From: Phycisphaerales bacterium
GTDB taxonomy: Bacteria; Planctomycetota; Phycisphaerae; Phycisphaerales; UBA1924
Assembly (NCBI GenBank): GCA_029260345.1
Contig: JAJDDK010000003.1
Span: 62,001-126,000, forward strand
DNA length: 64,000 nucleotides
Direction of reading: 5' to 3'
Shown here piece by piece: positions 25,384-38,575 of this stretch. Both the position numbers and the translations under genes were made by a program. Each line of letters opens with the position of its first letter. Position 1 is the stretch's first letter. A model generated the notes under the pieces. That model searched no databases and was not told the origin of the DNA. It was given only the letters and a program-made list of their open reading frames with translations.

Positions 25384-26586
25384 TTACTCGCGTTCGAAAA
25401 CGGTTGCGAGACCCTGTCCGACGCCGACGCAGAGAGAGGCGACGCCGCAATTGGCGCCGCGCCTGTTCATTTCGTGAATGAGCGTGGCCGCGAGGCGGGC
25501 GCCGCTGCATCCGAGCGGGTGTCCGATCGCGATGGCGCCGCCGTTGACGTTGAGTTTGTCTTCGTCGATCTTGAGTTCGCGCATGCATGCGACGGACTGA
25601 GCCGCGAACGCTTCGTTAATTTCGAAGAGGTCGATGTCGCTGATGTTGAGTTGCGCGCGCCCGAGCGCTTTGCGAATGGCGGGCACGGGGCCGATGCCCA
25701 TGGAGGCCGGGTCGACACCGGCTGACGCGCTGGGGCCGATGAAGGCGATCGGCTTGAGGCCGAGTGATTTGGCCATTCCCGCTTCGACGATCAACAGCGC
25801 TGCGGCGCCGTCGTTGACGCCGGAGGAATTCCCCGCCGTCACGGTCGCATCGTCCGCTTTGGAAAACACCGGTTTGAGACTCGCGAGTTTTTCGAGCGTT
25901 GTATCCGGGCGAGGGTGCTCATCCATATCGAAAACGACCGGGTCGCCCTTGCGCTGCGGGATTTCGACGGGGAGCAGTTCATCGGCGAACATACCTTTCT
26001 CGTTCGCGGCGCCCCAGCGCTGCTGGCTGCGCAACGCGAAGCGGTCCTGGTCGTCGCGGCTGACTTTGTACTGCCGCGCGACGTTCTCCGCGGTCTCGCC
26101 CATGGAATACGGATGATGCATCGCCGCGAGTCTCGGGTTGACGAAGCGCCACCCGATGGACGTATCGAAGATTTCCTGATTGCGGTCAAAGGCGGACTCT
26201 GCTTTGCTCAGCACCATCGGCGCGCGGCTCATGGATTCGACGCCGCCAGCGATGAAGACATCACCATGATTCGCTTCGATCATCCGTGCGGCGATGTTGA
26301 CGGCTTCAAGGCCGGAGGCGCACAGGCGATTCACCGTCGCGCCGGGGATCGTCTCAGGAAGGCCAGCCAACAGCGCCGCCATGCGCGCGACGTTGCGGTT
26401 GTCCTCCCCCGCTTGGTTTGCAGCGCCGAAATAGACGTCGTCAATCAACGCCGGATCAACGCCGGACCGATCGATTGCGGCTCGAATGACGTGCGCGGCG
26501 AGGTCATCGGGACGCACGCTCGCCAGCGCGCCCCCGTACCGGCCAATCGGAGTTCGCAAAGCGCTGATGATGGCGGCTCGTCGCAT
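25384..26586 (-). CDS. Acetyl-CoA acyltransferase (thiolase)
   Basis: A 400-residue thiolase; I start it at ATG 26586 (MRRAAIISALRTPIGRYGG), the normal family start, although the frame is open further upstream. The nucleophile is C89 (VNRLCASGLEAVN), followed by GGVESMSRAPM, the NGGAIAIGHPLGCSGAR histidine loop and the C-terminal CVGVGQG acid-base cysteine. It resembles beta-ketoadipyl-CoA/acetyl-CoA thiolases. It is encoded tail-to-tail with the aminotransferase (3-bp gap), so it is not in the same transcript but probably completes the same pathway by cleaving a 3-oxoacyl-CoA to acetyl-CoA plus a shorter acyl-CoA. Confidence 0.92.
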   Translation of the reverse strand: MRRAAIISALRTPIGRYGGALASVRPDDLAAHVIRAAIDRSGVDPALIDDVYFGAANQAGEDNRNVARMAALLAGLPETIPGATVNRLCASGLEAVNIAARMIEANHGDVFIAGGVESMSRAPMVLSKAESAFDRNQEIFDTSIGWRFVNPRLAAMHHPYSMGETAENVARQYKVSRDDQDRFALRSQQRWGAANEKGMFADELLPVEIPQRKGDPVVFDMDEHPRPDTTLEKLASLKPVFSKADDATVTAGNSSGVNDGAAALLIVEAGMAKSLGLKPIAFIGPSASAGVDPASMGIGPVPAIRKALGRAQLNISDIDLFEINEAFAAQSVACMRELKIDEDKLNVNGGAIAIGHPLGCSGARLAATLIHEMNRRGANCGVASLCVGVGQGLATVFERE

Positions 26587-26707
26587 CACTAGATGGTAGC
26601 GAATGGGGGCCATGATCGAGCGGGTTTCACTACCATGAGTCGCCGCTGAGCACGGCGCGCGAGCGATGGCTCGGCAACACTCACCACCGTGCAATGGAGA
26701 CCAACTC

Positions 26708-27910
26708 TTGCATGAGCTCCTCGCACTCCTTGCCCTCTTCGCACTGATTTATAGCTCTGTTGCCGGCGGTATTGAACGAACGAGGATCAGCGGCCCCATG
26801 GTGTTTGTCGTGTTCGGGCTCATTTTCGGCCCGATTGGGCTCGGAAGGCTTGGGCTCCGATTCGACGCCGAACTGCTCGCCGTACTCGCCGAGCTCACGC
26901 TTGCGCTGGTGTTGTTCACTGACGCCGCCGGGACGGATCTCGTTGCGCTGAATCGAGTCCGAAAGTTGCCGATTCGCTTGCTTGGACTCGGGTTGCCGCT
27001 GACGATCCTGCTTGGCTTTGGTGTCGGGACGCTCTTATTCGGCAGCCTCTCCCTTCTTGAGATCTCGCTCATTGCCACGATCTTGGCGCCGACGGATGCT
27101 GCGCTCGGCCAAGCGGTGATTACGAATAAGGCCGTTCCCAATTCGTATCGGCAGGTGCTCAGCGCGGAGAGTGGTCTCAACGACGGCATTTGCGTTCCCA
27201 TTCTCTTTCTGTTTCTCATTCTCATCAATGATCACAGCGGCGAAGCGGTTCCATGGCAGGTCGGGCTTGGATTGTTTGCCAAGGTGGTTGGCATCGGGCT
27301 CCTTGTGGGCGTCGGCTGTGCATTCTCAGCAGCAATCCTTCTGCGCTTCAGCAGCCAGCGCGGCTGGCTTTCGAAGGGTTGGAGTCAGATCTCGGTGGTC
27401 GCGCTCGCGTTCACGTGTTTCGCAGCAGCGGAGTCACTCGGCGGCAGCGGATTCATCGCATCGTTCTCCGGCGGCCTGCTCTTTGGCGTCCTTGTTAAGG
27501 ATCATCACGAAACGCTGCTCGAAGCAGGTGAGGATCTTGGAAGGGCGTTTGCCTTATTGACTTGGATCTTGTTTGGCGCGGGCGTCGTTGGTCAATCATT
27601 CAGTTATCTCACGTGGCCGATCGTGCTTTATGCGCTGCTCAGCTTGACGGTCATCCGCATGTTGCCAGCTTTTCTGGTGACGGCGGGACTGGGAATGAGC
27701 AAGGAGAGCCGGCTGTTTGTGGGTTGGTTTGGGCCGCGCGGCTTGGCGAGCATTGTGTTTGGTGTCATCGTGCTTGAGGAGCATCTCGAGCACAGCGACA
27801 CCATTAGCGCTGTCGTCGTCTGCACAGTGATGCTGAGCATTGTGCTGCACGGCGTGACGGCGAACCCGTGGGCGAAGACGTTTGGCGTGCGGGAAGCGCG
27901 CCGGAGCTAG
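26708..27910 (+). CDS. Cation:proton antiporter (CPA1/NhaP-like)
   Basis: A 400-residue membrane protein of about 12 helices. I choose TTG 26708 with GGAGA at 26696-26700; in-frame codons continue upstream but are not membrane-like. The conserved ion-site motifs APTDAALGQAV and AESGLNDGICVP (an Asp in the half-membrane helix) identify a CPA1-type Na+(K+)/H+ exchanger. It starts divergently from the thiolase and is followed by ohr. No cytoplasmic tail is present, unlike many NhaP2 proteins. Confidence 0.87.
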   Translation: MHELLALLALFALIYSSVAGGIERTRISGPMVFVVFGLIFGPIGLGRLGLRFDAELLAVLAELTLALVLFTDAAGTDLVALNRVRKLPIRLLGLGLPLTILLGFGVGTLLFGSLSLLEISLIATILAPTDAALGQAVITNKAVPNSYRQVLSAESGLNDGICVPILFLFLILINDHSGEAVPWQVGLGLFAKVVGIGLLVGVGCAFSAAILLRFSSQRGWLSKGWSQISVVALAFTCFAAAESLGGSGFIASFSGGLLFGVLVKDHHETLLEAGEDLGRAFALLTWILFGAGVVGQSFSYLTWPIVLYALLSLTVIRMLPAFLVTAGLGMSKESRLFVGWFGPRGLASIVFGVIVLEEHLEHSDTISAVVVCTVMLSIVLHGVTANPWAKTFGVREARRS

Positions 27911-27992
27911 AATGGCGTAGCGTCGGTTCGTCTGAATGTCGTGGAAAGCGGTAAGAATGTCGGATGGCGTCTATCTCTTGAGAGGGATAAAT

Positions 27993-28418
27993 ATGAACGT
28001 ACTCGCAACAGAAACAGCAAGCACAACCGGCGGTCGCGACGGCCGCTCAAAGAGTGCGGACGGAAAACTTGATCACCTGATTTCGCCGCCGGGATCAAAC
28101 GGGCCCGGAACCAATCCTGAGCAGCTCTTCGCAGCCGGATACTCGGCCTGTTTCGGCGGCGCAATTGGCGCCGCAGCGGGCATGGCGAAGATTCCGCTGC
28201 GCGGGAAAGACATCAGGGTGACCGCAACAGTAAGGCTTCATCAAGACGACAGCGGATATTTTATCTCGGTGGCGCTGAATGCTGAACTCACGACTGTCGA
28301 ACAGGCGAAAGCTGAAGAATTGGTTGTGAAAGCGCATACGATTTGCCCGTATTCGAAGGCGACGCGCGGGAATGTTGAGGTGACGCTGCTGGCGAATGGC
28401 GAGCCTGTGCATCGTTGA
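27993..28418 (+). CDS. ohr: Organic hydroperoxide resistance protein (OsmC/Ohr family)
   Basis: A 141-residue thiol peroxidase, starting at ATG 27993 with AGAGGG just upstream. The start matches Ohr length better than two in-frame ATGs further up. The opening ETASTTGGRDGRSKS and NPEQLFAAGYSACFGGA, with the peroxidatic cysteine in SACF and a second in HTICPYSKATRGN, are the Ohr hallmarks. It reduces organic hydroperoxides, usually with lipoylated partners. No OhrR-type regulator is adjacent. Confidence 0.93.
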   Translation: MNVLATETASTTGGRDGRSKSADGKLDHLISPPGSNGPGTNPEQLFAAGYSACFGGAIGAAAGMAKIPLRGKDIRVTATVRLHQDDSGYFISVALNAELTTVEQAKAEELVVKAHTICPYSKATRGNVEVTLLANGEPVHR

Positions 28419-28753
28419 TCAGAAGAACGCAAAAGAGTGGCGACCGCGCCCCCGCTGAAGTTCACCTACGAAAAAGATCCACAACCGGTCATGCGCCGCA
28501 CGAGGATCGAAGTCCAAAATCACTGGCCAAAGCGCTGAATACTTCTTAATTGAATCCGAGCATCCGTTGAATTCTCCATTCTCGTTCATCGCGCCGTTCC
28601 CCAAATGACGACCGCCACCTGAAGGAATGGTGGTTTTTGGCGACGAGACCGACCTCGTTGACGAGATCACATCGATTGTATTCAAGCGAGCGCCCTGCCA
28701 TAATAGAATTCGATCTTGTAAGTACTTGAAACTGCAGAGACAAGGGGTCGAGT
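28419..28753. other. Intergenic stretch upstream of the DUF3604 gene
   Basis: About 335 bp without a supported gene. A TAGAAT (about 28703-28708) could be a -10 element for the DUF3604 operon but lacks a good -35. The ribosome site AAGGGG (about 28742) belongs to the DUF3604 gene. Confidence 0.4.
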
Positions 28754-30691
28754 ATGCACCGTTTTCATCGAGTCCTACGCGGGCTGGTCGGACTCTTGGC
28801 GATCACCGCATCGCACGCCGCGATCGCCCAAGATTCGGGAACGCTTCATAAGGCTGACGCCGAGCGCGTCCACGGATCGGAGCCGGTGTACTCTCCCTAC
28901 GCCAATCGAAACTTTCCGACGCGGCCGTTCTTTGGCGACACGCACATGCATACGTCGTTCTCGATGGATGCGGGCGCGTTCGGTGCGCGGCTCACGCCGC
29001 GCAATGCCTATCAGTTTGCGAGGGGCGAGCAGGTGATGGCTTCAAGCGGGCAGCCGGTGAAGCTGTCACGTCCTCTGGATTTTCTTGTCGTCGCTGACCA
29101 CTCCGACAACATGGGCTTTTTTCCGGATCTGTTCGCCGGCTCGCCAAATCTGCTTGCCGATCCGACTGGGAAAAAGTGGTACGACATGATCCAAAGCGGC
29201 AAGGGCGCCGACGCCGCCATTGAAATCATCGTCGCTTTTTCCCACGGAACTTTCCCGAAGGATCTCATGTACTTCCCAGGAACACCGGGATACAAGGGCG
29301 CCTGGAAGAAGACCATTGACGCCGCTGAAGAATTCAACGATCCCGGACGATTCACTGCCTTCATCGGCTATGAGTGGACCTCCAACACAGATGGAAACAA
29401 TTTGCATCGCAATGTGATTTTTCGCGACAACGGGGATATGGCAATCCGCGTTGAGCCATACACGGTGTACCCGCCATATGGCAGCGACAATCCGGTGGAC
29501 CTTTGGAAGTGGATGGCGGCATACGAGGACAAAATCGGCGGCGATGTGCTGGCCATCCCCCACAATGGCAATTTGTCCAACGGCCTGATGTTTCCGCTGG
29601 TGGAAGCATTCCAGCAAGAGCTGGACGAAGGCTATGTGCAAGCTCGGGCCAAGTGGGAGCCGCTGTACGAAGTCGCGCAAACCAAGGGCGATGGCGAAGC
29701 GCATCCGAGTTTGTCGCCGAACGATGAATTTGCGAACTTTGAAACGTGGGACAAAGGCAACCTTGACGGGAGCGTCGCCAAGACGCCGGAGATGCTTCCG
29801 CACGAATACGCACGCTCCGCGCTGAAGCTCGGCTTGAAACTTGAAGACGAGCTTGGAACGAATCCATACAAGTTTGGATTGATCGGAAGCAGCGATGCGC
29901 ACACCGGCCTCGCCGCTTTGGCGGAGGACAATTTCTTTGGAAAGACGACGCCGCAAGAGCCCAGCCCCGAGCGCATGACTGCGACATTCGTCGACAACCA
30001 ATCAACCGGCGTCAAGATCATGGACTGGGAAGTCTCGGCGGCGGGATACGCCGCGGTGTGGGCGACGGAGAACACGCGCGAATCCATTTTCGACGCGATG
30101 GAGCGAAAAGAAACGTATGCGACGACGGGCACGCGCCTGATCGTTCGTTTCTTCGGCGGATGGGATTTCACATCAGAGGATGCCCTGACGCGGGCGCCAG
30201 CGGTCATCGGTTATTCCAAGGGTGTTCCGATGGGCGGCGATTTGCGATCCGCCCCGGATGGGAAGTCACCGAGCTTTCTTGTGATGGCGCTGCGAGATCC
30301 GATCGGCGCCAATCTTGATCGAATTCAGATCGTCAAGGGCTGGATGGACGCCAACGGCGAACTACAAGAGAAAATTTACGACGTCGTTTGGGGCGACGCC
30401 GAAACGCGCACTCCGGGGCGGGACGGAAAGCTGCCGCCCGTCGGCAGCACGGTGGATGTCGAGAACGCGATATGGACGAACACCATCGGCGACCCAGAGT
30501 TGATTGGGGTCTGGACCGACCCCGATTTCGATCCGAATCAGCGCGCGTTCTATTACACCCGGGTGTTGGAGATTCCGACGCCGCGCTGGACGGCGTATGA
30601 CGCGGCGTTCTATGACATCGAACCGCTGCCCGGGACTGTGATGACGCTGCAAGAGCGCGCCTACACCTCCCCTATCTGGTACACGCCGTAA
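28754..30691 (+). CDS. DUF3604 exported PHP-like metal hydrolase
   Basis: A 645-residue exported protein; the signal peptide ends near SHAAIAQDSG. It begins the mature domain with FFGDTHMHTSFSMDAG, whose histidines resemble the first metal motif of PHP/amidohydrolase-type enzymes, followed by FLVVADHSDNMGF and later LIGSSDAHTGLAAL, which supply further His/Asp ligands. Length and motifs fit the DUF3604 family, whose substrate is unknown. It forms a tight unit with a membrane-anchored parvulin (3-bp gap) and a HupE/UreJ-type membrane protein. Confidence 0.88.
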   Translation: MHRFHRVLRGLVGLLAITASHAAIAQDSGTLHKADAERVHGSEPVYSPYANRNFPTRPFFGDTHMHTSFSMDAGAFGARLTPRNAYQFARGEQVMASSGQPVKLSRPLDFLVVADHSDNMGFFPDLFAGSPNLLADPTGKKWYDMIQSGKGADAAIEIIVAFSHGTFPKDLMYFPGTPGYKGAWKKTIDAAEEFNDPGRFTAFIGYEWTSNTDGNNLHRNVIFRDNGDMAIRVEPYTVYPPYGSDNPVDLWKWMAAYEDKIGGDVLAIPHNGNLSNGLMFPLVEAFQQELDEGYVQARAKWEPLYEVAQTKGDGEAHPSLSPNDEFANFETWDKGNLDGSVAKTPEMLPHEYARSALKLGLKLEDELGTNPYKFGLIGSSDAHTGLAALAEDNFFGKTTPQEPSPERMTATFVDNQSTGVKIMDWEVSAAGYAAVWATENTRESIFDAMERKETYATTGTRLIVRFFGGWDFTSEDALTRAPAVIGYSKGVPMGGDLRSAPDGKSPSFLVMALRDPIGANLDRIQIVKGWMDANGELQEKIYDVVWGDAETRTPGRDGKLPPVGSTVDVENAIWTNTIGDPELIGVWTDPDFDPNQRAFYYTRVLEIPTPRWTAYDAAFYDIEPLPGTVMTLQERAYTSPIWYTP

Positions 30692-30694
30692 GTC

Positions 30695-31555
30695 ATGAAG
30701 TGGCTGTTGAAGGAACCGTTGGTTCATTTCCTCGCACTTGGTGCTGCTCTGTTCGCAGCGTTCGCCGTGCTGGGATCGCGCGAGGAATCGCCGCGGGACA
30801 ATGAGATTGTGATTTCCGAAGGCGCCATTGAGCATTTCACGGCGCTCTTTGTGAGAACGTGGCAGCGACCGCCGACGCGTCAGGAACTCGATGCGTTAAT
30901 TCAAGAGCACGTGCGCGAGGAGATCGCCTACCGGGAAGGGCTTGCGATGGGCCTTGACCGGGATGACACTGTCATCCGCCGGCGTGTGCGTCAGAAACTC
31001 GAGTTCCTCACCGAAGACCTCGTTGAACAGGTGCAGCCGACGGACGCTGATCTGGAAACGTTTCTTCAGGCCTACCCCGAGGAGTTTCGTGGCGCTGGGC
31101 GGCTTTCCTTTCGTCATGTATTTCTAAATCCGGAGTTCCGTGGCGAGCGGCTGGCTGCGGACGCCGACGAGATCCAAGAATCGCTGAATGGCGATTCGAC
31201 GATTGACGCCGGCGCGCTTGGCGACCGGATCATGCTCGAGCATGCATACGCGGACGCTTCGCCGCGCGATGTTGAAGCGATATTTGGATCTGAATTCTCG
31301 ACGGCTGTCATTGAACTTGAGCCGGGAACCTGGCATGGGCCAATCGCATCGAGTTACGGCGCGCATTTGGTGATCGTCGATGCGCGCGATGACGGCAGCG
31401 CGTTGACACTCGCGGATGTGCGCGCCGAAGTGCTTCGCGCGTGGAAGAGCGAACGGCGGAATCAGCTCTTCGCACAGTTCTATGACCAATTGCAGAGCAA
31501 GTACGAGATTGTTGTGGAATGGCCGCGCCGCGATGAAGAGCGTGCGCCGCAATGA
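30695..31555 (+). CDS. Membrane-anchored parvulin-type peptidyl-prolyl isomerase
   Basis: A 286-residue protein with an N-terminal membrane anchor (LVHFLALGAALFAAFAVLG). It has a SurA/PrsA-like helical section (PPTRQELDALIQEHVREEIAYREGLAMGLDRDDTVIRRRVRQ) and a rotamase region (GRLSFRHVFLNPE, then ELEPGTWHGPIASSYGAHLVIVD). It probably folds exported partners, perhaps the DUF3604 protein encoded just upstream. Its stop overlaps the next start by 4 bp. Confidence 0.85.
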   Translation: MKWLLKEPLVHFLALGAALFAAFAVLGSREESPRDNEIVISEGAIEHFTALFVRTWQRPPTRQELDALIQEHVREEIAYREGLAMGLDRDDTVIRRRVRQKLEFLTEDLVEQVQPTDADLETFLQAYPEEFRGAGRLSFRHVFLNPEFRGERLAADADEIQESLNGDSTIDAGALGDRIMLEHAYADASPRDVEAIFGSEFSTAVIELEPGTWHGPIASSYGAHLVIVDARDDGSALTLADVRAEVLRAWKSERRNQLFAQFYDQLQSKYEIVVEWPRRDEERAPQ

Positions 31556-32559
31556 CCTGGCGATGGGTCTGGATGCTGACCGTCTGCGCCGCGTTCGCCG
31601 CACGCTCCCATGGTCACGAAGTGCGCCCGGCATATCTTGAGTTGCAACAAACGTCGGCCGACACGTTTGATGTGCTTTGGAAAGTTCCGGCGCGTGGCGA
31701 CCTTCGGCTTGGGCTTTACGTTCGATTGCCAGAGGATTGCGAGGCGACCAGTGAGCCGTGGGCCGCGCTCGCGGATGGGGCGCACATCGAACGCTGGAGC
31801 GTGCGTCACGCCGGCGCCTTGGTTGGCGAGACGATTTACATCGATGGCCTTCAAACAACGCTCACCGATGTGCTCGTGCGAATCTCTCGGCTGGACGGAG
31901 CCACACAGGTGGCGCGGCTGTCCCCAGCGTCGCCGTCGATCGTCGTCGCGGCGTCCCCCAGCGCCTGGAATGTAGCGCTGACGTACTTCGTGCTTGGCGT
32001 TGAGCACATTCTTTTGGGAACCGACCACTTGCTGTTTGTGCTGGCGCTGCTGCTGCTCGTCAGCGGATGGAAACGAATCATTGGCACGGTCACGGCGTTT
32101 ACTGTGGCGCACAGCGTCACGCTGGCGCTGGCGACGCTTGGCGTCGTGCATGTGCCTGCGGCGCCGGTCGAGGCGATCATCGCGCTGAGCATTGTTTTCG
32201 TCGCAGCGGAGATTGTGCGCAGCGTGAACGGCCATCCCGGCATGGCGGAGCGCTGGCCGTGGATCGTCGCGTTTCTTTTCGGCCTGTTGCACGGGCTGGG
32301 GTTTGCGGGAGCCTTGCGTGAGATTGGGCTGCCGCACAACGCGATTCCGCTGGCGCTATTGCAATTCAACGTTGGTGTTGAGGTGGGGCAGCTCATGTTC
32401 ATCGCGGCGGTCTACATCGTTTGGAGCGCTTTGCGGCGACTTCCGGTTGAGCCGTCGCCCCGCTGGGCACTGGCGCCCGCCTACCTGATCGGCGCCGTCG
32501 CAATGTTTTGGGTCATCGATCGCATTGCGGGATTCTCCGATCTAACCGGCGTCGCATAA
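31552..32559 (+). CDS. HupE/UreJ-family membrane protein
   Basis: A 335-residue protein. An N-terminal signal and ~150-residue extracytoplasmic domain (HEVRPAYLELQQTSADTFDVLW) are followed by about six membrane helices carrying the HupE/UreJ hallmarks VEHILLGTDHLLFVLALLLL and GLLHGLGFAGAL, in which the conserved histidines could bind metal. HupE/UreJ proteins are proposed nickel or cobalt permeases, but this long-N-terminus subgroup sits with DUF3604 and parvulin genes rather than hydrogenase or urease, so the cargo is uncertain. Confidence 0.85.
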   Translation: MTWRWVWMLTVCAAFAARSHGHEVRPAYLELQQTSADTFDVLWKVPARGDLRLGLYVRLPEDCEATSEPWAALADGAHIERWSVRHAGALVGETIYIDGLQTTLTDVLVRISRLDGATQVARLSPASPSIVVAASPSAWNVALTYFVLGVEHILLGTDHLLFVLALLLLVSGWKRIIGTVTAFTVAHSVTLALATLGVVHVPAAPVEAIIALSIVFVAAEIVRSVNGHPGMAERWPWIVAFLFGLLHGLGFAGALREIGLPHNAIPLALLQFNVGVEVGQLMFIAAVYIVWSALRRLPVEPSPRWALAPAYLIGAVAMFWVIDRIAGFSDLTGVA

Positions 32560-32734
32560 ACCACGCCATGCACATACTTGTCGTTCCGCCACTGCAAGAA
32601 CGACTCGGCGTTTGCGCAGCGGTGGCTGACCATTGACCACTCATGTGAAGCCCGCGCGTCAGACCCCGTCGCAGCCGCGGAGCCATCGAAACGACGTCCT
32701 CGGCTCTCGTGCATCTGTGAACAAGCTCGACCGT

Positions 32735-33421
32735 TCAATCACGCAGCTTGAGCAAGACCACCACCGCCTGGAAGGGCGAGTCGGTGTTCGTGCGAAGCTC
32801 GATTCGCCCCGACTCGCACCATTGCGCATCACCAAACTTGAGTGAAGTCTCCTTGCTCTGGGCGACGACGACGCCTGCGGACTCCGCGACGATGACCACC
32901 GGTGTTGCGGTCTCAAAGACCACAGGAACGTCTTGGAGCGCTTCAACACGTGCAAGGCGCGCTTTCGCATTCTCAAGAAGTGTTTCACCGATGACGAAAA
33001 TTTCGGTGTTCACCGCCGGCGGCTGCAGGCTGAAGATCTCGACCGTGACGACTCGGACAGTGTTTTTCCCGATGTTGGCGGTCTGATGAACAATGGCGGA
33101 GTCCCCGAACGCAACAGCGCCCTGTTCGACGCTTTCCTCCTGCACTGATCCATCGTCAAGGGTGATGCGGAATCTCCCGTCTGTCAGAAAGACGACGGCC
33201 GATTCAATGGGATGCGAATGCAGGAGCGTTTCCTCGCCAGGAGCAAGGCGGGTCTCCATGACGCGGACGTATCCGTTCTGAAAGCGCACGTGGTGATGTG
33301 ATTCGAGAGAGCCCGGCATTGATGAATGCGGCGCCGCGCACGACGAGAGCGCCAGTGTTGAGGACAGGAAAGTCAGCCGTGCCAGGCACGTCGAAGGACG
33401 ACAAATTGGTGCGATTCGCAT
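32735..33421 (-). CDS. Cupin-domain lipoprotein
   Basis: A 228-residue protein, starting at ATG 33421. The signal peptide ends in a lipobox-like ALSSC. A cupin fold is indicated by VRVMETRLAPGEETLLHSHPIESAVVFLTDGRFRI, with the H-x-H, Glu and Gly pattern of cupin motif 1, and by GAVAFGDSAIVHQTANIG for motif 2. The C-terminal half repeats a beta-rich pattern and may be a second, degenerate cupin. The function is unknown; related cupins are often enzymes or ligand sensors. It stands alone on the minus strand. Confidence 0.7.
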   Translation of the reverse strand: MRIAPICRPSTCLARLTFLSSTLALSSCAAPHSSMPGSLESHHHVRFQNGYVRVMETRLAPGEETLLHSHPIESAVVFLTDGRFRITLDDGSVQEESVEQGAVAFGDSAIVHQTANIGKNTVRVVTVEIFSLQPPAVNTEIFVIGETLLENAKARLARVEALQDVPVVFETATPVVIVAESAGVVVAQSKETSLKFGDAQWCESGRIELRTNTDSPFQAVVVLLKLRD

Positions 33422-33573
33422 GCGTTGCGGCTCTCTTCGATTGAACTCAGTCTGAATGGAATGATGTTCGCGAGCGTTCAAGATACCTTGGTTCGCGGTG
33501 AGGCGGATGAGGCGTGGATGCGTGGATGCGTGACCTCGCCTTGGAGTATGCACGCATTGCCGATGGAGGCGCC

Positions 33574-34092
33574 ATGCAAAAGATTGAAAGAATGATTGTG
33601 AGCCTGATCCTTGCGTCACTGCTTGTCGGATGTCACGCGAGCTCCACGCAGCAGTTGAGGGGTCTCCAACATGACGAGCCATTGCGCATCGCCGGCGTCT
33701 GGCAACTGGTCGAACTTCACGACTGGAATTCTGAGGGCGAAGATGTTAGTTCGCTTGGCGTTCATGCGCCCGGCCTGTTCGTCTATACGCCCAATGGGAA
33801 TCTGTCCCTTCACATCATGACCGAACACGAGCGCGACCTGATCGATCGCGACACAAGCGATGCCGAGTTGGGGCGGATTTTTCGCCCCTACATCGGATAC
33901 TTCGGGACCTATGACGTGGACTATGAGAATATGACCATCACGCACCACATCGAGGGCGCCAAACTCCCCAATCGCATCGGGCGCTCAGCGGTTCGGACCT
34001 TCTACTTCGAAGAGGGCGATCTGATCCTCGACTTCACAAATGCGAACGGGTGGCGGTTCTTTCGGCGCCTGAAGCGCATTGAATCGCTCTGA
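33574..34092 (+). CDS. Lipocalin-like lipoprotein
   Basis: A 172-residue lipoprotein, starting at ATG 33574 with a clean GGAGG at 33565-33569; longer in-frame starts are unlikely. Signal peptide VSLILASLLVGC. The mature part (GVWQLVELHDWNSEG, GLFVYTPNGNLSLHIM, IGYFGTYDVDYENMTITHHIEG) matches the lipocalin-like domain seen in many small exported proteins. It may bind a small hydrophobic ligand. It is the last gene before the island. Confidence 0.75.
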   Translation: MQKIERMIVSLILASLLVGCHASSTQQLRGLQHDEPLRIAGVWQLVELHDWNSEGEDVSSLGVHAPGLFVYTPNGNLSLHIMTEHERDLIDRDTSDAELGRIFRPYIGYFGTYDVDYENMTITHHIEGAKLPNRIGRSAVRTFYFEEGDLILDFTNANGWRFFRRLKRIESL

Positions 34093-34237
34093 TATTCGGC
34101 GCCTTGTTCAGCGACGACGCGTACGCCGGTCCATTCGGCGCCACCGAGCCCTACGCCAACATCACCTACTGAATTCTCAACCAGCTATGGAAATGCGAGT
34201 CGGTGCGCATAAGCGCGGCTCAACACAAAACGAATAA

Positions 34238-34271
34238 CCGCGTTTCTCGGCACTTCGACCGAGAAACGCGG
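34238..34271 (-). terminator. 13-bp hairpin downstream of the tRNA-Asp fragment
   Basis: A perfect inverted repeat, CCGCGTTTCTCGG at 34238-34250 and CCGAGAAACGCGG at 34259-34271 with an 8-nt loop. It lies just past the 3' end of the tRNA remnant read on the minus strand and is probably the original tRNA terminator. The following T-run is interrupted, so efficiency is uncertain. Confidence 0.55.
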
Positions 34272-34280
34272 CATTCAAAA

Positions 34281-34322
34281 CGAGGCGGACGGGACTCGAA
34301 CCCGCAACCTCCGGATCGACAG
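34281..34322 (-). other. tRNA-Asp(GTC) 3'-end fragment, probable attachment-site scar
   Basis: On the minus strand the 42 bases read, from the anticodon loop, CTGTCGATCC, then the variable loop, T-arm GCGGGTTCGAGTCCCGT, acceptor strand CCGCCTC and discriminator G. This is the 3' half of tRNA-Asp with anticodon GTC. The expected 5' half (acceptor, D-arm and 5' anticodon stem) is missing at higher coordinates. CCA is not encoded. Such a fragment marks the distal end of an element that integrated into a tRNA 3' end; the intact copy should lie to the right and is not in this window. Confidence 0.75.
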
Positions 34323-34630
34323 GCGCGTTCGGAGCAGAGCCAAGATCGCCGACAAGCACTGATTTGGGCGTAGTTTACGTATTCAGAACCAATTCGCAAC
34401 CGCTAATGTTCTACCGCCGTTCTGAGTGTCCTGAGGCAGTATTTGCTTGAGTGGCCGGTAGGATCCGGTATTGATTTCCGCGCTCCAGGAGACTTTGGTT
34501 TTGCTCCGGCAGGACTACTCAATTCGGCCGGACAACCGCGCAACTGAGTTTGTCTAAGGCGGTGGTTGCGATGTGCGGCAAACATTCTCGCATTCGGCGT
34601 CGACACGAGCCGTTTGCAATAATTCGGCGT

Positions 34631-35896
34631 ATGTCGACTATCCCGGCCCATGGCTACCGCACCGTCGGTATCGATACACAGATTCCGTGGCCAGATCAAG
34701 AACGTGCGATCGCATTTCAAGGTCGGGAGCTTCATCTTCTTCCCGGCTCTGACACACTGTCGTCCATGATCCGGGTAAGAACTGAAGAGGGATTCAATCA
34801 GATCGATGCCGACAAGCTGATTCTCGAATTTCTCAGCGCGGCCGCATGGGCCGAGCAAGCCGATGCGGCCACAACCTTCTCGAACTGGTGCACGGTCCCG
34901 CTCAATATCGGCAAGCGGCCTACGGGCGTCATCGGCTCAGGAGACTTCGGCTATCTGCCCGATCCGCCAGATCCAAAGGCAAAGCTGGCTCTTGCGTTGT
35001 TTCGCGAGGGACTGTCCGTCAACCTCACGCCATATCAGTTCCTCGGCTTTTTCAAGGTAATCAACATTATACGAGACAAGGGAACCGACCAGAAACAATG
35101 GATAAGAGACAATCTTCAACACACCACCGACAAGCGCGCACTCGCGCGCATCAAGGCGATCAAATCCGTCGAATCCGACGTGGCCGACTATCTATACGGC
35201 TCAGGCAGGTGTGCGGTGGCCCATGCTTTTGACCAGAACAGCGTCGTCAACCCGGATGATCCCGTCGATCTCATCCGCTTATCCGAAGACCTGCCGGTAA
35301 TCCGTGAACTCGCGCGGATCGCCATCGAGCGGGAGCTCAAAGTTCAGTCGGAACGGGACTTTCACCGCGAACACCTCTACGAATTGGACGGATTCCGCAC
35401 GATCTTTCGCGATGCACTCGTGAGGCGAGTCAAATCGGGAGAGACGATATCTGCAACTGACGTGCCGCTTCCCAAGCTCCTCTCGCTTCGCATACGCGGC
35501 CGGGACCAGATCGAACTGTTCGAGTCGATGGACGCTGCCGTCGTGTACGTCCGCGACGGATGTGTACGCGTTCGCCTTGGTTCGGCATGTCGCCGCTTGG
35601 TCGTGTTCGCAACACTCGACTTCGGGCGTGAGAGCTTTGTATCCAACCCACTCGCTGATATCCAGTACTACGATGATGGCACACCGGAAGCTGCGAGGAT
35701 GATCCTCCGGCAATTGCAACTTTATCGGTGGTGGTTCGGAGGAAACGGAGTCGTCGAGCTCTGGGCGCCAGCGACGAACAAGCGCCTTGCCCATTCTCAG
35801 CCTTACATGCCACCCATAAACTCTCGCTTTCCACACGATGAGTTCGAGAGGATGGTATCCGAGCTTCGAGCGAGGATCGGCAAGTATCCTCCATGA
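34631..35896 (+). CDS. HEPN-motif protein, possibly MauJ-like
   Basis: 421 residues from ATG 34631; no clear ribosome site, and an in-frame non-ATG start at 34550 is possible. The middle of the protein has a HEPN-like R-x4-H (RCAVAH, residues 193-198) preceded by VADYLYGSG, as in abortive-infection HEPN RNases. The N-terminal region (FNQIDADKLILEFLSAAAWAEQ) resembles uncharacterised MauJ-type proteins, which share a HEPN-like helix. No membrane segments. It is convergent with the CBASS phospholipase (15-bp gap). A toxin/effector role is inferred only from the motif and location. Confidence 0.5.
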   Translation: MSTIPAHGYRTVGIDTQIPWPDQERAIAFQGRELHLLPGSDTLSSMIRVRTEEGFNQIDADKLILEFLSAAAWAEQADAATTFSNWCTVPLNIGKRPTGVIGSGDFGYLPDPPDPKAKLALALFREGLSVNLTPYQFLGFFKVINIIRDKGTDQKQWIRDNLQHTTDKRALARIKAIKSVESDVADYLYGSGRCAVAHAFDQNSVVNPDDPVDLIRLSEDLPVIRELARIAIERELKVQSERDFHREHLYELDGFRTIFRDALVRRVKSGETISATDVPLPKLLSLRIRGRDQIELFESMDAAVVYVRDGCVRVRLGSACRRLVVFATLDFGRESFVSNPLADIQYYDDGTPEAARMILRQLQLYRWWFGGNGVVELWAPATNKRLAHSQPYMPPINSRFPHDEFERMVSELRARIGKYPP

Positions 35897-35911: not shown

Positions 35912-36976
35912 TCAATAACCGGTTCCTAAATTGGTCAAAGATTGCATCTTTGGCTTTTCATTCTCTAAAATCGGGATCGATATGAATGGATCCGCCTTCG
36001 CGCGTAAAAACCGATCTCGAATTCTTGCGCAATGCGCTCGGCCCGCGTGCTCGCCCAGTCCGATGAGGTCATCCAAGCGACGGCAATCGTCCATCGCAAA
36101 TCGCTTCTTGTTCTCGACGTTGTCAATTCGAATCAGCGCCTCGTCATGTCCGTTCTCGGGGCGCAGCACGATCGACGCCTGTTGGTGGATGGAGGATGCT
36201 GTCGCTTGCATGAGCAACTCCAGTAGTCGCGGACCGGACGTCAGGAATCCTCGCCGGCTCGTGGGCGGGAGAATCTGTCCGAATCGGCGTTTGTCGTCCA
36301 AGTAGAAAGGCGAAGAAATCGTGCCCACGGAGAGCACATCGATCTCCGAATGCGACTTGCCGAGATATTTCGTCGCCTCGATTACACCTACGAGCGCCGG
36401 ACAATTCGCCCATACTCCACCGTCAACGTACAACGTCCCCCAACTCGCCCGATGGGCGGGGAAAAAGGTCGGCGCCGCCGAGGTCGCCATCGCAATCTCC
36501 CATACCGGTCGCAAATGGTCATGGATGAATGAGGGATGATGGCGCGTTTTGAAGCACGTGACTTCGCCCCGCGTGACGTTGAATGCGGGGATCACAAGAC
36601 GACTTTTTGATGCGCCAAGAAGCGTCTTTTCGCCCAGCAGATCGATGACTGCCGTTTGTAATCCACCTGCTCGATACTTGCTCGACCAGAGAACTTGACG
36701 CACCCAGCGACCTCTATCACCAATAATCGAAGACGGAAATATCCGTGGACCGTGAGATCGATAGAACTCCAGTATCTCTTCTGCGGAATGACCAAGGCCG
36801 AGCCCAAGCGCGATCAGTCCTCCAGTGGACGTGCCGACGATCAAGTCAAAGCAATCCGCGATTCGTTCATTGGTCGCATGCTCGAATTCGCGCAGGACTG
36901 CCGCTGTGTAAGCGCCGCGAATGCCGCCTCCGTCCAAAGCCAGCACTCGGAATTTCAGGTTGTGTTCATTCATCAA
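35912..36976 (-). CDS. capV: CBASS effector: patatin-like phospholipase (CapV type)
   Basis: A 354-residue patatin-fold lipase. The oxyanion motif is DGGGIRG (15-21), the nucleophile is S50 in GTSTG, and the catalytic Asp is D185 in DGGVWAN. Context (CD-NTase and E2 genes immediately upstream) identifies it as the CBASS effector that is switched on by a cyclic nucleotide and degrades the membrane during infection. Its ATG overlaps the E2 stop by 4 bp. The C-terminal ~150 residues are the likely nucleotide-sensing part. The cyclic nucleotide cannot be read from sequence; CapV relatives respond to cGAMP. Confidence 0.9.
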   Translation of the reverse strand: MMNEHNLKFRVLALDGGGIRGAYTAAVLREFEHATNERIADCFDLIVGTSTGGLIALGLGLGHSAEEILEFYRSHGPRIFPSSIIGDRGRWVRQVLWSSKYRAGGLQTAVIDLLGEKTLLGASKSRLVIPAFNVTRGEVTCFKTRHHPSFIHDHLRPVWEIAMATSAAPTFFPAHRASWGTLYVDGGVWANCPALVGVIEATKYLGKSHSEIDVLSVGTISSPFYLDDKRRFGQILPPTSRRGFLTSGPRLLELLMQATASSIHQQASIVLRPENGHDEALIRIDNVENKKRFAMDDCRRLDDLIGLGEHAGRAHCARIRDRFLRAKADPFISIPILENEKPKMQSLTNLGTGY

Positions 36977-37404
36977 TTGCTTTCATTCGCGGCGTACTGC
37001 GCCAACAGCTCCTCCAAGGTAACCCCGCCGCCGTGCCAGGTTCCTGACGCGAGCCACCACTCGTAGAACAAGAGCCACTCACACGTCCATGGAATGATGG
37101 TCAAAGCAATCGGATGACCGTCATTCCACTCATTCGCATCGGGATCGTATAAACAGATTGTTCCATCCCCATTGAGGTGCGGGTTTCGCTGTCCATGCGC
37201 TACTTTGACCGGCGCCGGATCGAGCACCCGCACGACAGGGCGCACCCCCTCTGCATACGCCACAACGATCAAATATTCTTCGCAGAGATTGCAAGGCTGC
37301 ACCGAACCGCGGGCGATAAGGACGTTGTCTTTGATCGCTGTCTCGAACTTGTCGAAGTGCATCGCAATGAGACGCTCTTGCGCTCTCAATCCGTCATGCT
37401 TCAT
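36973..37404 (-). CDS. CBASS E2-like ubiquitin-conjugating-fold protein (no E1)
   Basis: A 143-residue protein starting at ATG 37404, one base after the CD-NTase stop. The E2-type active site is C84 in HLNGDGTICLYDP, with H76 upstream and the following NEWNDGHPIALTIIPWTCEWL helix; this matches prokaryotic E2 proteins of short type II CBASS. In those systems the E2 forms a covalent link with the CD-NTase C-terminus without a separate E1 or JAB protease. Neither gene is nearby here. The 4-bp overlap with the phospholipase implies a single transcript. Confidence 0.85.
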   Translation of the reverse strand: MKHDGLRAQERLIAMHFDKFETAIKDNVLIARGSVQPCNLCEEYLIVVAYAEGVRPVVRVLDPAPVKVAHGQRNPHLNGDGTICLYDPDANEWNDGHPIALTIIPWTCEWLLFYEWWLASGTWHGGGVTLEELLAQYAANESN

Positions 37405-37405
37405 C

Positions 37406-38575
37406 TCAGGGCTCGCAGTGGAATGTGTGTCGCGGATTCGGAACACCCTGCGGACGTCGATCTGCCGCGCCGGTGACAGTCACGATGCCGGAGGGAAGCG
37501 TTCGCAACGCTTGCCGAGTGCCGCTGTCCTTGAAGTCAGCAAATACGGAATCGACCGCAGATGAAACTGGACGCGACCCGAATGTTCCTTCCAACGCCTC
37601 CTTGACGCGGTGAATTCCGGCGACCGACCCGAGATTGTCCAGCGATTTGCGCAGCGCGGAAATAAAAACACGGAATCGCCGGTATGTCTCGTCATCCAAG
37701 CACTCGACCAGATCGTCATGCGGATAGGCGGGGTTACAGATCACGATCCTAAACGGAGCGGCCGCTTCGATCTCGTCGTCTATTTCCGCAACGACGTTGC
37801 TCAACCCTTCGTAGAGCGAGACTTCGCCCTCATAGCGATTGGCCGCCAGCGTAGTCAACAGGATTGAGCTCGGCGCCGGATTGGTCCCGAACGCCACGTT
37901 GCGCGCTTGCTTGATGAGCTGCACGATGATCTGCAGTGGCAGCTTTTCGCCATTCTCATTTCCCACAGGAACAGGCTCGACCGACGCGACCGCACGCCGT
38001 TCCAACCGCACATCAACTGCGCATCGAGAGCGGAACCACAATTGAAACCCTCGCGGATCCGTCTCTCGCCATGAGGAGTTCGGCGGCGTGTTCGCCTCCG
38101 CCTTTGGGTGCTTGATCAAGTGTCCTTCCGCGCTCGGATTGGCGCACGCCGGCACCACATCCAAATGAAAGCCGTCCGTCAAGTAATTGAGTCGAATGCA
38201 ATTGGGCTTCTCTTCGAGAATGTCTCTGTAGACGCCATGCGCGCGCAATCGAGCAAGAACGTCTTTGTACAATTTGAAGCTGTTGTCACTGCTCGGATCC
38301 CATGAGTATCCGGCCACAAGATCAATGTCGAATTCATTGCCGGCGGCCGGCTTGACAGTCGTGCCGAGCGCCATCGATCCTTGGGCGAAAATCTCTTCAT
38401 GGCGCCCAGCCAGTGTCCCATCGTCATCAGCGAGCCAGGCGCCCACGGCTTCGTAACTCTTGATCGCCCGCTTTCGTTGAGTGTCGCTCAGTTCCACTGA
38501 GGCCGCCAAAGCTGCCAACATCCGATCCCGCTCGTCATGGAACACAACGCGTTGCCCTTGCTTCACTACGGTCAT
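37406..38575 (-). CDS. CBASS CD-NTase (cyclic oligonucleotide synthase)
   Basis: A 389-residue nucleotidyltransferase with an excellent ribosome site (GGAGGTG before ATG 38575). The active site is G66-S67 (QGSMALGTTVKP), D83 and D85 (EFDIDLV) and D139 (FHLDVVPA), so all three metal carboxylates are present. The C-terminal part is typical of CD-NTase helical lobes. The C-terminal residues end PRHTFHCEP. In type II CBASS the extreme C-terminus is the E2 target; that this tail serves so is inference. First gene of the CBASS operon and divergent from the sigma gene. Confidence 0.92.
   Translation of the reverse strand: MTVVKQGQRVVFHDERDRMLAALAASVELSDTQRKRAIKSYEAVGAWLADDDGTLAGRHEEIFAQGSMALGTTVKPAAGNEFDIDLVAGYSWDPSSDNSFKLYKDVLARLRAHGVYRDILEEKPNCIRLNYLTDGFHLDVVPACANPSAEGHLIKHPKAEANTPPNSSWRETDPRGFQLWFRSRCAVDVRLERRAVASVEPVPVGNENGEKLPLQIIVQLIKQARNVAFGTNPAPSSILLTTLAANRYEGEVSLYEGLSNVVAEIDDEIEAAAPFRIVICNPAYPHDDLVECLDDETYRRFRVFISALRKSLDNLGSVAGIHRVKEALEGTFGSRPVSSAVDSVFADFKDSGTRQALRTLPSGIVTVTGAADRRPQGVPNPRHTFHCEP

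Follow-up and report, generated by a model that had tools for sequence, protein, structure and literature searches.

A linked DUF3604, parvulin and HupE gene trio in a Phycisphaerales bacterium and its possible role in periplasmic metal handling

Three genes of a Phycisphaerales bacterium raise the question of why a DUF3604 protein, a parvulin-family protein and a HupE/UreJ-2 permease should be encoded back to back. The genes, called A, B and C in their order, occupy positions 28754-32559 of a 64,000-nucleotide stretch of DNA, hereafter the window (GenBank assembly GCA_029260345.1, contig JAJDDK010000003.1, positions 62,001 to 126,000 of the forward strand). An earlier note, made from the letters of this DNA, proposed a hidden extracytoplasmic pathway that combines metal import for the hydrolase with a folding helper. 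Our analysis supports linkage of the trio: the genes are not random neighbors, and the closest tie among them is that of B to C. We tentatively read the trio as an envelope module that keeps a periplasmic PHP metallohydrolase folded and metal-loaded, a broad maturation reading to which we assign a probability of roughly 0.4. The features on which the argument draws are as follows.

28754-30691, + strand: A, the DUF3604 gene, 645 amino acids (open reading frame; PF12228 match of 807.3 bits against a Pfam cut-off of 20.4, covering profile positions 2-591 of 591)
28913-30133, + strand: PHP-like catalytic domain of A, about residues 54-460 (structural match of the model)
30134-30688, + strand: C-terminal beta-sandwich domain of A, about residues 461-645 (secondary structure of the model)
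30695-31555, + strand: B, the parvulin-family gene, 286 amino acids, whose N-terminal membrane-like segment EPLxHFLxxGAxLF is conserved (conserved columns; Rotamase_2 PF13145 match of 38.1 bits against a cut-off of 27)
31037-31423, + strand: parvulin domain of B, residues 115-243 (PF13145)
31552-31555, + strand: ATGA overlap of 4 bp, stop of B and start of C (open reading frame coordinates)
31552-32559, + strand: C, the HupE/UreJ-2 permease gene, 335 amino acids, with signal peptide, metal-binding-like N-terminal domain and membrane domain (model; HupE_UreJ_2 PF13795 match of 173.2 bits against a cut-off of 24.5, with PF04955 also matching at 25.5 bits)
31615-31617, + strand: codon of H22 of C, the predicted first mature residue (HEVRPAYLE after a signal-peptide-like stretch)
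31615-31956, + strand: extracytoplasmic ZrgA/anglerase-like domain of C, residues 22-135 (Foldseek and VIA-align)
31957-32556, + strand: membrane domain of C, residues 136-335 (helices in the model; invariant residues)

By open reading frame coordinates, A and B are separated by 3 bp (30692-30694) and B and C overlap by 4 bp, exactly the packing that the earlier note had described.

Linkage of the trio across phyla

The neighborhood of DUF3604 was surveyed at 81 loci, comprising the window and the best 80 of 206 relatives of A found when one genome of each species was scanned. In their best segments these relatives are 61-79% identical to A of the window, and they belong to ten named phyla, with 56 of the 80 in Pseudomonadota. 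Because related genomes are not independent, results are given as counts and not as probabilities. HupE lies within 10 kb of DUF3604 at 66 of 81 loci, and at 64 the parvulin is present too. Two gene orders alternate, A-B-C at 33 loci and B-C-A at 30, with three loci in another close arrangement and 15 with neither B nor C. The HupE-bearing loci (65 named, the window aside) span seven named phyla, DUF3604 itself ten. Random neighbors in other genomes had been put forward as an outcome that would speak against a pathway; the survey instead found HupE beside DUF3604 in seven phyla and in two alternating orders.

In a quick, unbootstrapped tree of A with 68 rows, the phyla are interleaved, with 17 phylum changes against a least possible number of 9 and a mean of 22.4 after shuffling. 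Gene order, mapped on the 51 ordered rows, changes 12 times (shuffled mean 16.4), at least seven of these changes being upheld by starred, well-supported branches. Thus, the trio genes have been joined repeatedly and not once. A of the window falls near alphaproteobacterial sequences on a branch that is not starred. Base composition carries no signal of recent transfer, with GC contents of 0.586, 0.589 and 0.628 for A, B and C against 0.587 for the window; the case for transfer therefore rests on the tree and on the distribution of the trio, which is patchy and often plasmid-borne. Collectively, these data suggest a horizontally mobile module that travels through many unrelated bacteria.

Co-occurrence was counted in two genome sets. 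Among 392 planctomycete genomes (DUF3604 at E<=1e-30, HupE/UreJ-2 at E<=1e-20), DUF3604 occurs in 14, any HupE/UreJ-2 match in 67 and a trio-type HupE, defined here as a full-length or split match of more than 200 bits, in 11. Ten of these 11 genomes also have DUF3604; in the eleventh (G599) the contig ends right after B-C. In the rhizobial family of a Mesorhizobium locus from the survey (199 genomes; DUF3604 at E<=1e-60, HupE/UreJ-2 at E<=1e-30), DUF3604 is found in 22 genomes and HupE/UreJ-2 in 33, of which 19 have the trio type and 14 the generic type. DUF3604 is present in all 19 genomes with the trio type and in none of the 14 with generic copies only. In the plasmid database PLSDB, A matches 78 records and C matches 77. 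When the best 60 records of each list are compared, 52 are common to both, and 51 of these carry A and C on the same strand with starts less than 6 kb apart; the eight unshared records on each side may fall below the cut of the other list.

A conjugative plasmid of Sinorhizobium meliloti carries two DUF3604 genes in tandem, together with the parvulin and HupE genes, between type IV secretion and TraA genes (L177:5282-10981). Broken or split copies of DUF3604 and HupE occur in some planctomycetes (L110, L111 and L102:7017-7936), L102 holding an intact DUF3604 as well, and one genome, G452, has only adjacent fragments of both genes.

The parvulin-permease pair

Within the trio, the association of B with C is the closest. 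We examined 86 trio-type C genes (65 from the named survey loci, 6 from planctomycetes and 15 trans copies, that is, copies away from the DUF3604 locus). B lies directly upstream of C in 82 of them and within about 600 bp in three more; the last is cut by a contig end. An in-frame ATGA or GTGA joins the stop of B to the start of C at 51 of 62 loci. Pairwise distances over 59 loci tell the same story, with correlations of 0.66 for B-C, 0.37 for A-B and 0.41 for A-C, which become 0.53, 0.15 and 0.23 when only pairs less than 80% identical in A are considered. As a control, 14 loci encoding generic HupE/UreJ-2 proteins (membrane domain, below 200 bits) were inspected, and none has the trio parvulin, one being cut upstream by a contig end.

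The pair also persists apart from DUF3604. Fourteen genomes whose DUF3604 locus lacks B-C were searched for trio-type HupE (the genome of L077 was left out), and ten encode it elsewhere. All 15 trans copies of C follow a B gene, and eight of these 15 loci also hold a DUF3604 paralog. Around the other seven, neighbors include AsmA-like, Omp85-like, NosD-like and MIP-channel genes. These seven loci imply that B-C has other roles and is not exclusive to DUF3604.

The three genes might simply ride the same mobile islands and perform separate jobs within a larger exported cluster that includes sulfatase, formylglycine-generating enzyme (FGE), DUF2092, DUF2950, DUF3300, FadL and patatin genes. Such an account fits the patchy, often plasmid-borne distribution and the recurrence of other exported neighbors. 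It sits badly with the frequency of those neighbors: B and C are present at 64-66 of the 81 loci, no other cluster reaches more than 20, and the genes named above, like DUF1254/1214, Ysc84 and DUF4410, are each found at 11 loci at most (20 of 41 listed clusters were scanned, by one member each). The repeated changes of gene order and the trio-type HupE retained elsewhere in ten of the 14 genomes also speak against mere passengers, and we regard this explanation as very unlikely.

Predicted proteins and the direction of metal flow

The AlphaFold2 model of A, built from a 75-row alignment (pLDDT 90.5), consists of a PHP fold and a C-terminal beta domain. Its eight best VIA-align matches are all PHP-domain proteins (Z 16.0 to 8.6) and include 3e38 (Z 16.0; 223 residues aligned, 3.3 A), 2anu (Z 15.2), 3o0f (Z 10.2) and RNase AM 9etk (Z 8.7); Foldseek placed 3e0f and 3o0f at the top. 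The C-terminal domain resembles many Ig-like folds weakly (best about Z 4) and has no clear fold. Eight residues (H64, H66, H116, E207, H218, H270, D381, H383) do not vary in any of the 75 rows and recur in 10 of 11 paralogs of 40-59% identity, the eleventh (L161) being cut by a contig end. We take them to be the PHP metal-ligand set, in the expected motifs; PHP enzymes use Zn, Mn or Fe. By pattern, the export signal is of the ordinary Sec type, with a Tat-like motif in 1 and a lipobox in 3 of the 75 rows. Fold, ligands and signal support A as a putative exported, metal-dependent PHP-type hydrolase, in agreement with the PHP-like exported hydrolase of the earlier note, although hydrolysis itself is a prediction. 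In the one open-licence paper found to name it, a Chlamydia transposon list, DUF3604 has no assigned function.

The model of C (47 rows, pLDDT 91.5) combines a beta domain of residues 22-135, the long extracytoplasmic N-terminus already noticed at first reading, with a helical membrane domain. In the latter, H152, D158, H159, H187, E220, H247 and E277 are invariant in 47 of 47 rows, and we presume that the HX5DH motif among them is the pattern of nickel/cobalt permeases. Structural matches of the membrane domain (7vcf, Z 9.7; 7tx7, Z 7.7; VIA-align) lie within the range of common helical arrangements and indicate no clear fold. For the N-terminal domain, VIA-align returned the zinc proteins ZrgA (8f1b, Z 10.3) and PA4063 (7bgo, Z 9.7), then 9gce (Z 8.0), the copper-bound structure of the anglerase domain RbAng-1a; Foldseek found ZrgA 8ezw with a probability of 1.00. 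The 9gce match covers 102 residues at 2.9 A and 16% identity, and its Z of 8.0 is barely above that of ligand-gated channel domains (7.8). Its first aligned pair joins H22 of the model to chain residue 1; with ZrgA, the first pair joins model residue 23 to residue 36. A mature N-terminal His is predicted in 59 of 66 rows, the window included, from a hydrophobic stretch, a small residue and then HEVRPAYLE or a near variant, the cleavage site being judged from sequence. At the thresholds used, sequence searches returned no solved relative of any of the three proteins, and the 47-row profile of C gave no match to PDB sequences at E<=1, 9GCE included. C is thus anglerase-like by architecture and fold and not by detectable sequence. 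Together, fold and N-terminal His support a metal role for C as a putative metal-capturing permease.

Several relatives carry a second, short HupE/UreJ-family gene near the trio (L176:14138-14737, L035:14360-15040 and L164:8325-8924, identified by annotation or Pfam match except for the L164 copy, which was judged by eye), a further hint of a metal role. A metal-responsive riboswitch might have pointed to the metal, but Rfam gave no match at the gathering threshold, either in window positions 26000-35000 or at the loci of seven relatives. The earlier note had also remarked that no hydrogenase or urease is near, and this holds genome-wide: neither Urease_alpha nor NiFeSe_Hases, the two families searched for among nickel enzymes, is matched anywhere in the genome of the host, which is 96% complete. 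A role of C in supplying nickel to urease or NiFe hydrogenase was consequently rejected for this host.

B matches a profile, Rotamase_2, that is matched by all 56 of its aligned relatives. Its H224 is invariant (56 of 56), and position 141 is His in 18 and Gln in 38; the window protein has both H141 and H224. Going by Pin1, we assume that these are the first (H141) and last (H224) catalytic His positions of a parvulin. B may be more a chaperone than an isomerase.

In the maturation reading that we prefer, A would be exported unfolded via Sec and would bind transition-metal ions in its predicted PHP active site. The anglerase-like domain of C, as its fold and the example of RbAng-1a suggest, could capture a transition metal at the periplasmic face through the mature N-terminal His, and the metal would then pass to, or come from, the membrane domain. 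The membrane-anchored parvulin, made together with HupE, would help to fold HupE, DUF3604 or both. B-C would be the constant core and would serve DUF3604 above all, with C setting the periplasmic metal supply of A, whether by supplying metal or by adjusting its level.

Several observations weigh against this reading, the first being direction. HupE is known as an importer and would draw metal out of the compartment of the enzyme; with a Sec-type signal, A should fold and take up its metal in the periplasm, so that HupE import into the cytoplasm fits poorly. Partner genes are also missing in places. B and C are absent from the stretch examined at 15 of 81 loci, seven of which are flanked on either side by 5 kb of contig or more (the other eight fall short on one or both sides). 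An intact trio-type HupE is missing from three of the 14 planctomycete genomes with DUF3604, a fourth having only fragments, and three of the 22 rhizobial genomes with DUF3604 have no trio-type HupE. No trio-type HupE was recovered in four of the 14 genomes searched for a trans copy, all of them metagenome-assembled and one with just a 76-bit and a 64-bit match, and seven of the 15 trans copies of B-C are not accompanied by DUF3604. At the residue level, the first expected catalytic His of B is mostly Gln, and the N-terminal His is missing from seven of 66 C rows, with Asp in its place in five and an apparently misread start in two.

The proposal of metal import plus a folding helper accordingly stands in part. 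A metal role for HupE is backed by fold and N-terminal His, and a metal-dependent DUF3604 by the ligands; import on behalf of the hydrolase meets the problem of topology. There are two ways around this problem: at the periplasmic face, C could load A with metal; alternatively, A could free chelated metal for import by C. The first, taken further, would make B-C a dedicated periplasmic metallation and folding machine, in which the N-terminal His domain delivers metal to an enzyme that arrives through Sec and is folded next to the permease by the coupled parvulin. We consider this specific version unlikely. If true, the machine would do after export what the metallochaperone-plus-Tat route does in the cytoplasm, in a cassette spread across at least seven phyla.

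The second way turns the enzyme into a servant of the permease: DUF3604 would hydrolyze a metal-holding phosphoester or chelate in the periplasm, and HupE would catch and import the freed metal. Such scavenging suits the topology, with a Sec-exported enzyme and a periplasmic capture domain on the permease, and agrees with an outer-membrane-barrel-like family as the commonest other neighbor (20 of 81 loci), with the second HupE-family gene in some loci and with the occurrence of B-C away from DUF3604. It leaves the strict parvulin-HupE pairing unexplained and would render DUF3604 idle where HupE is missing (3 of 22 and 3-4 of 14 genomes), and no metallophore gene is named among the 20 neighbor clusters that were scanned by a single member. 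We judge it rather unlikely.

A related capture domain prefers copper and PHP enzymes use other metals, so that the metal captured by C need not be that of the enzyme. HupE might then clear the periplasm of a wrongly binding metal such as copper, which would leave DUF3604 with its own. The copper preference that favors clearance is that given for RbAng-1a in the text of PMC12537917. Against it, no copper-resistance gene is named among the same 20 clusters, again with one member of each scanned, and the closest folds of the C domain are zinc proteins. Clearance is, in our view, improbable. The maturation reading is the one that we prefer, and the trio offers a testable setting for DUF3604 and for the question of how Sec-exported metalloenzymes obtain the right metal.

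Other neighbors and known systems

Genes flanking the trio in the window have no obvious relation to it: upstream lie a Na/H-exchanger and an OsmC-like gene, downstream a cupin gene on the opposite strand. Farther downstream, a gene for a MauJ-domain protein spans 34550-35896 (methylamine genes were found in 0 of 7 other window genes scanned around the trio), and a CBASS-like anti-phage operon occupies 35912-38575 on the minus strand, where PADLOC recognized a patatin phospholipase effector (322 bits), an E2-like protein (115) and an oligonucleotide cyclase (252). Elsewhere in the survey, the outer-membrane-barrel-like family, recognized by eye, comprises L030:11970-12773 and 20 other members, often adjoining DUF3604; it is the commonest cluster after B and C and has no Pfam match in the single member scanned. 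Exported neighbors recur at L003, L007, L017, L044, L052, L058, L060, L061 and others, among them sulfatase, sulfatase-modifying factor, DUF2092, DUF2950, DUF3300, DUF1254/1214, DUF4410 and HAD proteins, and may mark a wider envelope catabolic cluster.

All three components fall into known families. The open-licence papers searched contain no account of the trio as a linked set or of the B-C pair. A resembles the PHP phosphoesterases 3E38, 2ANU, 3O0F and 9ETK in fold and in the conserved His/Asp/Glu set; it differs from them in being exported and about 600 residues long, with insertions, a C-terminal beta domain and no solved sequence relative. C shares its membrane domain family with classical HupE, reportedly a nickel permease of Rhizobium leguminosarum described by Brito et al. 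in 2010. It departs from that protein in its large N-terminal domain, its other partner genes and a host without a urease alpha or NiFe hydrogenase match.

The best structural matches of the C domain are ZrgA and PA4063 (8F1B, 7BGO). According to the text of PMC9820375, zinc site 1 of ZrgA is formed by His35 and His37, and ZrgA, which carries a His-rich loop, acts as a free protein alongside an ABC transporter, whereas the domain here is fused to a HupE permease. ZrgA is likewise the closest fold of RbAng-1a as stated in PMC12537917, so that the two domains share their nearest structural relative.

The closest parallel is with the anglerases, HupE/UreJ-2 permeases with Ang-1 or Ang-2 domains that were described in 2025 and whose neighbors are, in the account of PMC12537917, mostly of unknown function. 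The same text gives Kd values of 74 nM (Cu) and 220 nM (Ni) for RbAng-1a, with copper bound by His1 and Asn41. C resembles RbAng-1a (9GCE) in its signal peptide, predicted mature N-terminal His, beta-sandwich and PF13795 membrane domain, although its domain has about 114 residues against 168. The commonest Ang-1 neighbors given there are proteins of unknown function, followed by DUF4198, indigoidine A-like and PfkB proteins, and those of Ang-2 are metallophosphatases and DUF916 (PMC12537917). Here the partner is a parvulin and the neighbor DUF3604, neither of which is named in the main text of that article, its figures and supplements aside. The trio thereby names a partner enzyme for an anglerase-like permease and ties that permease to a parvulin of its own.

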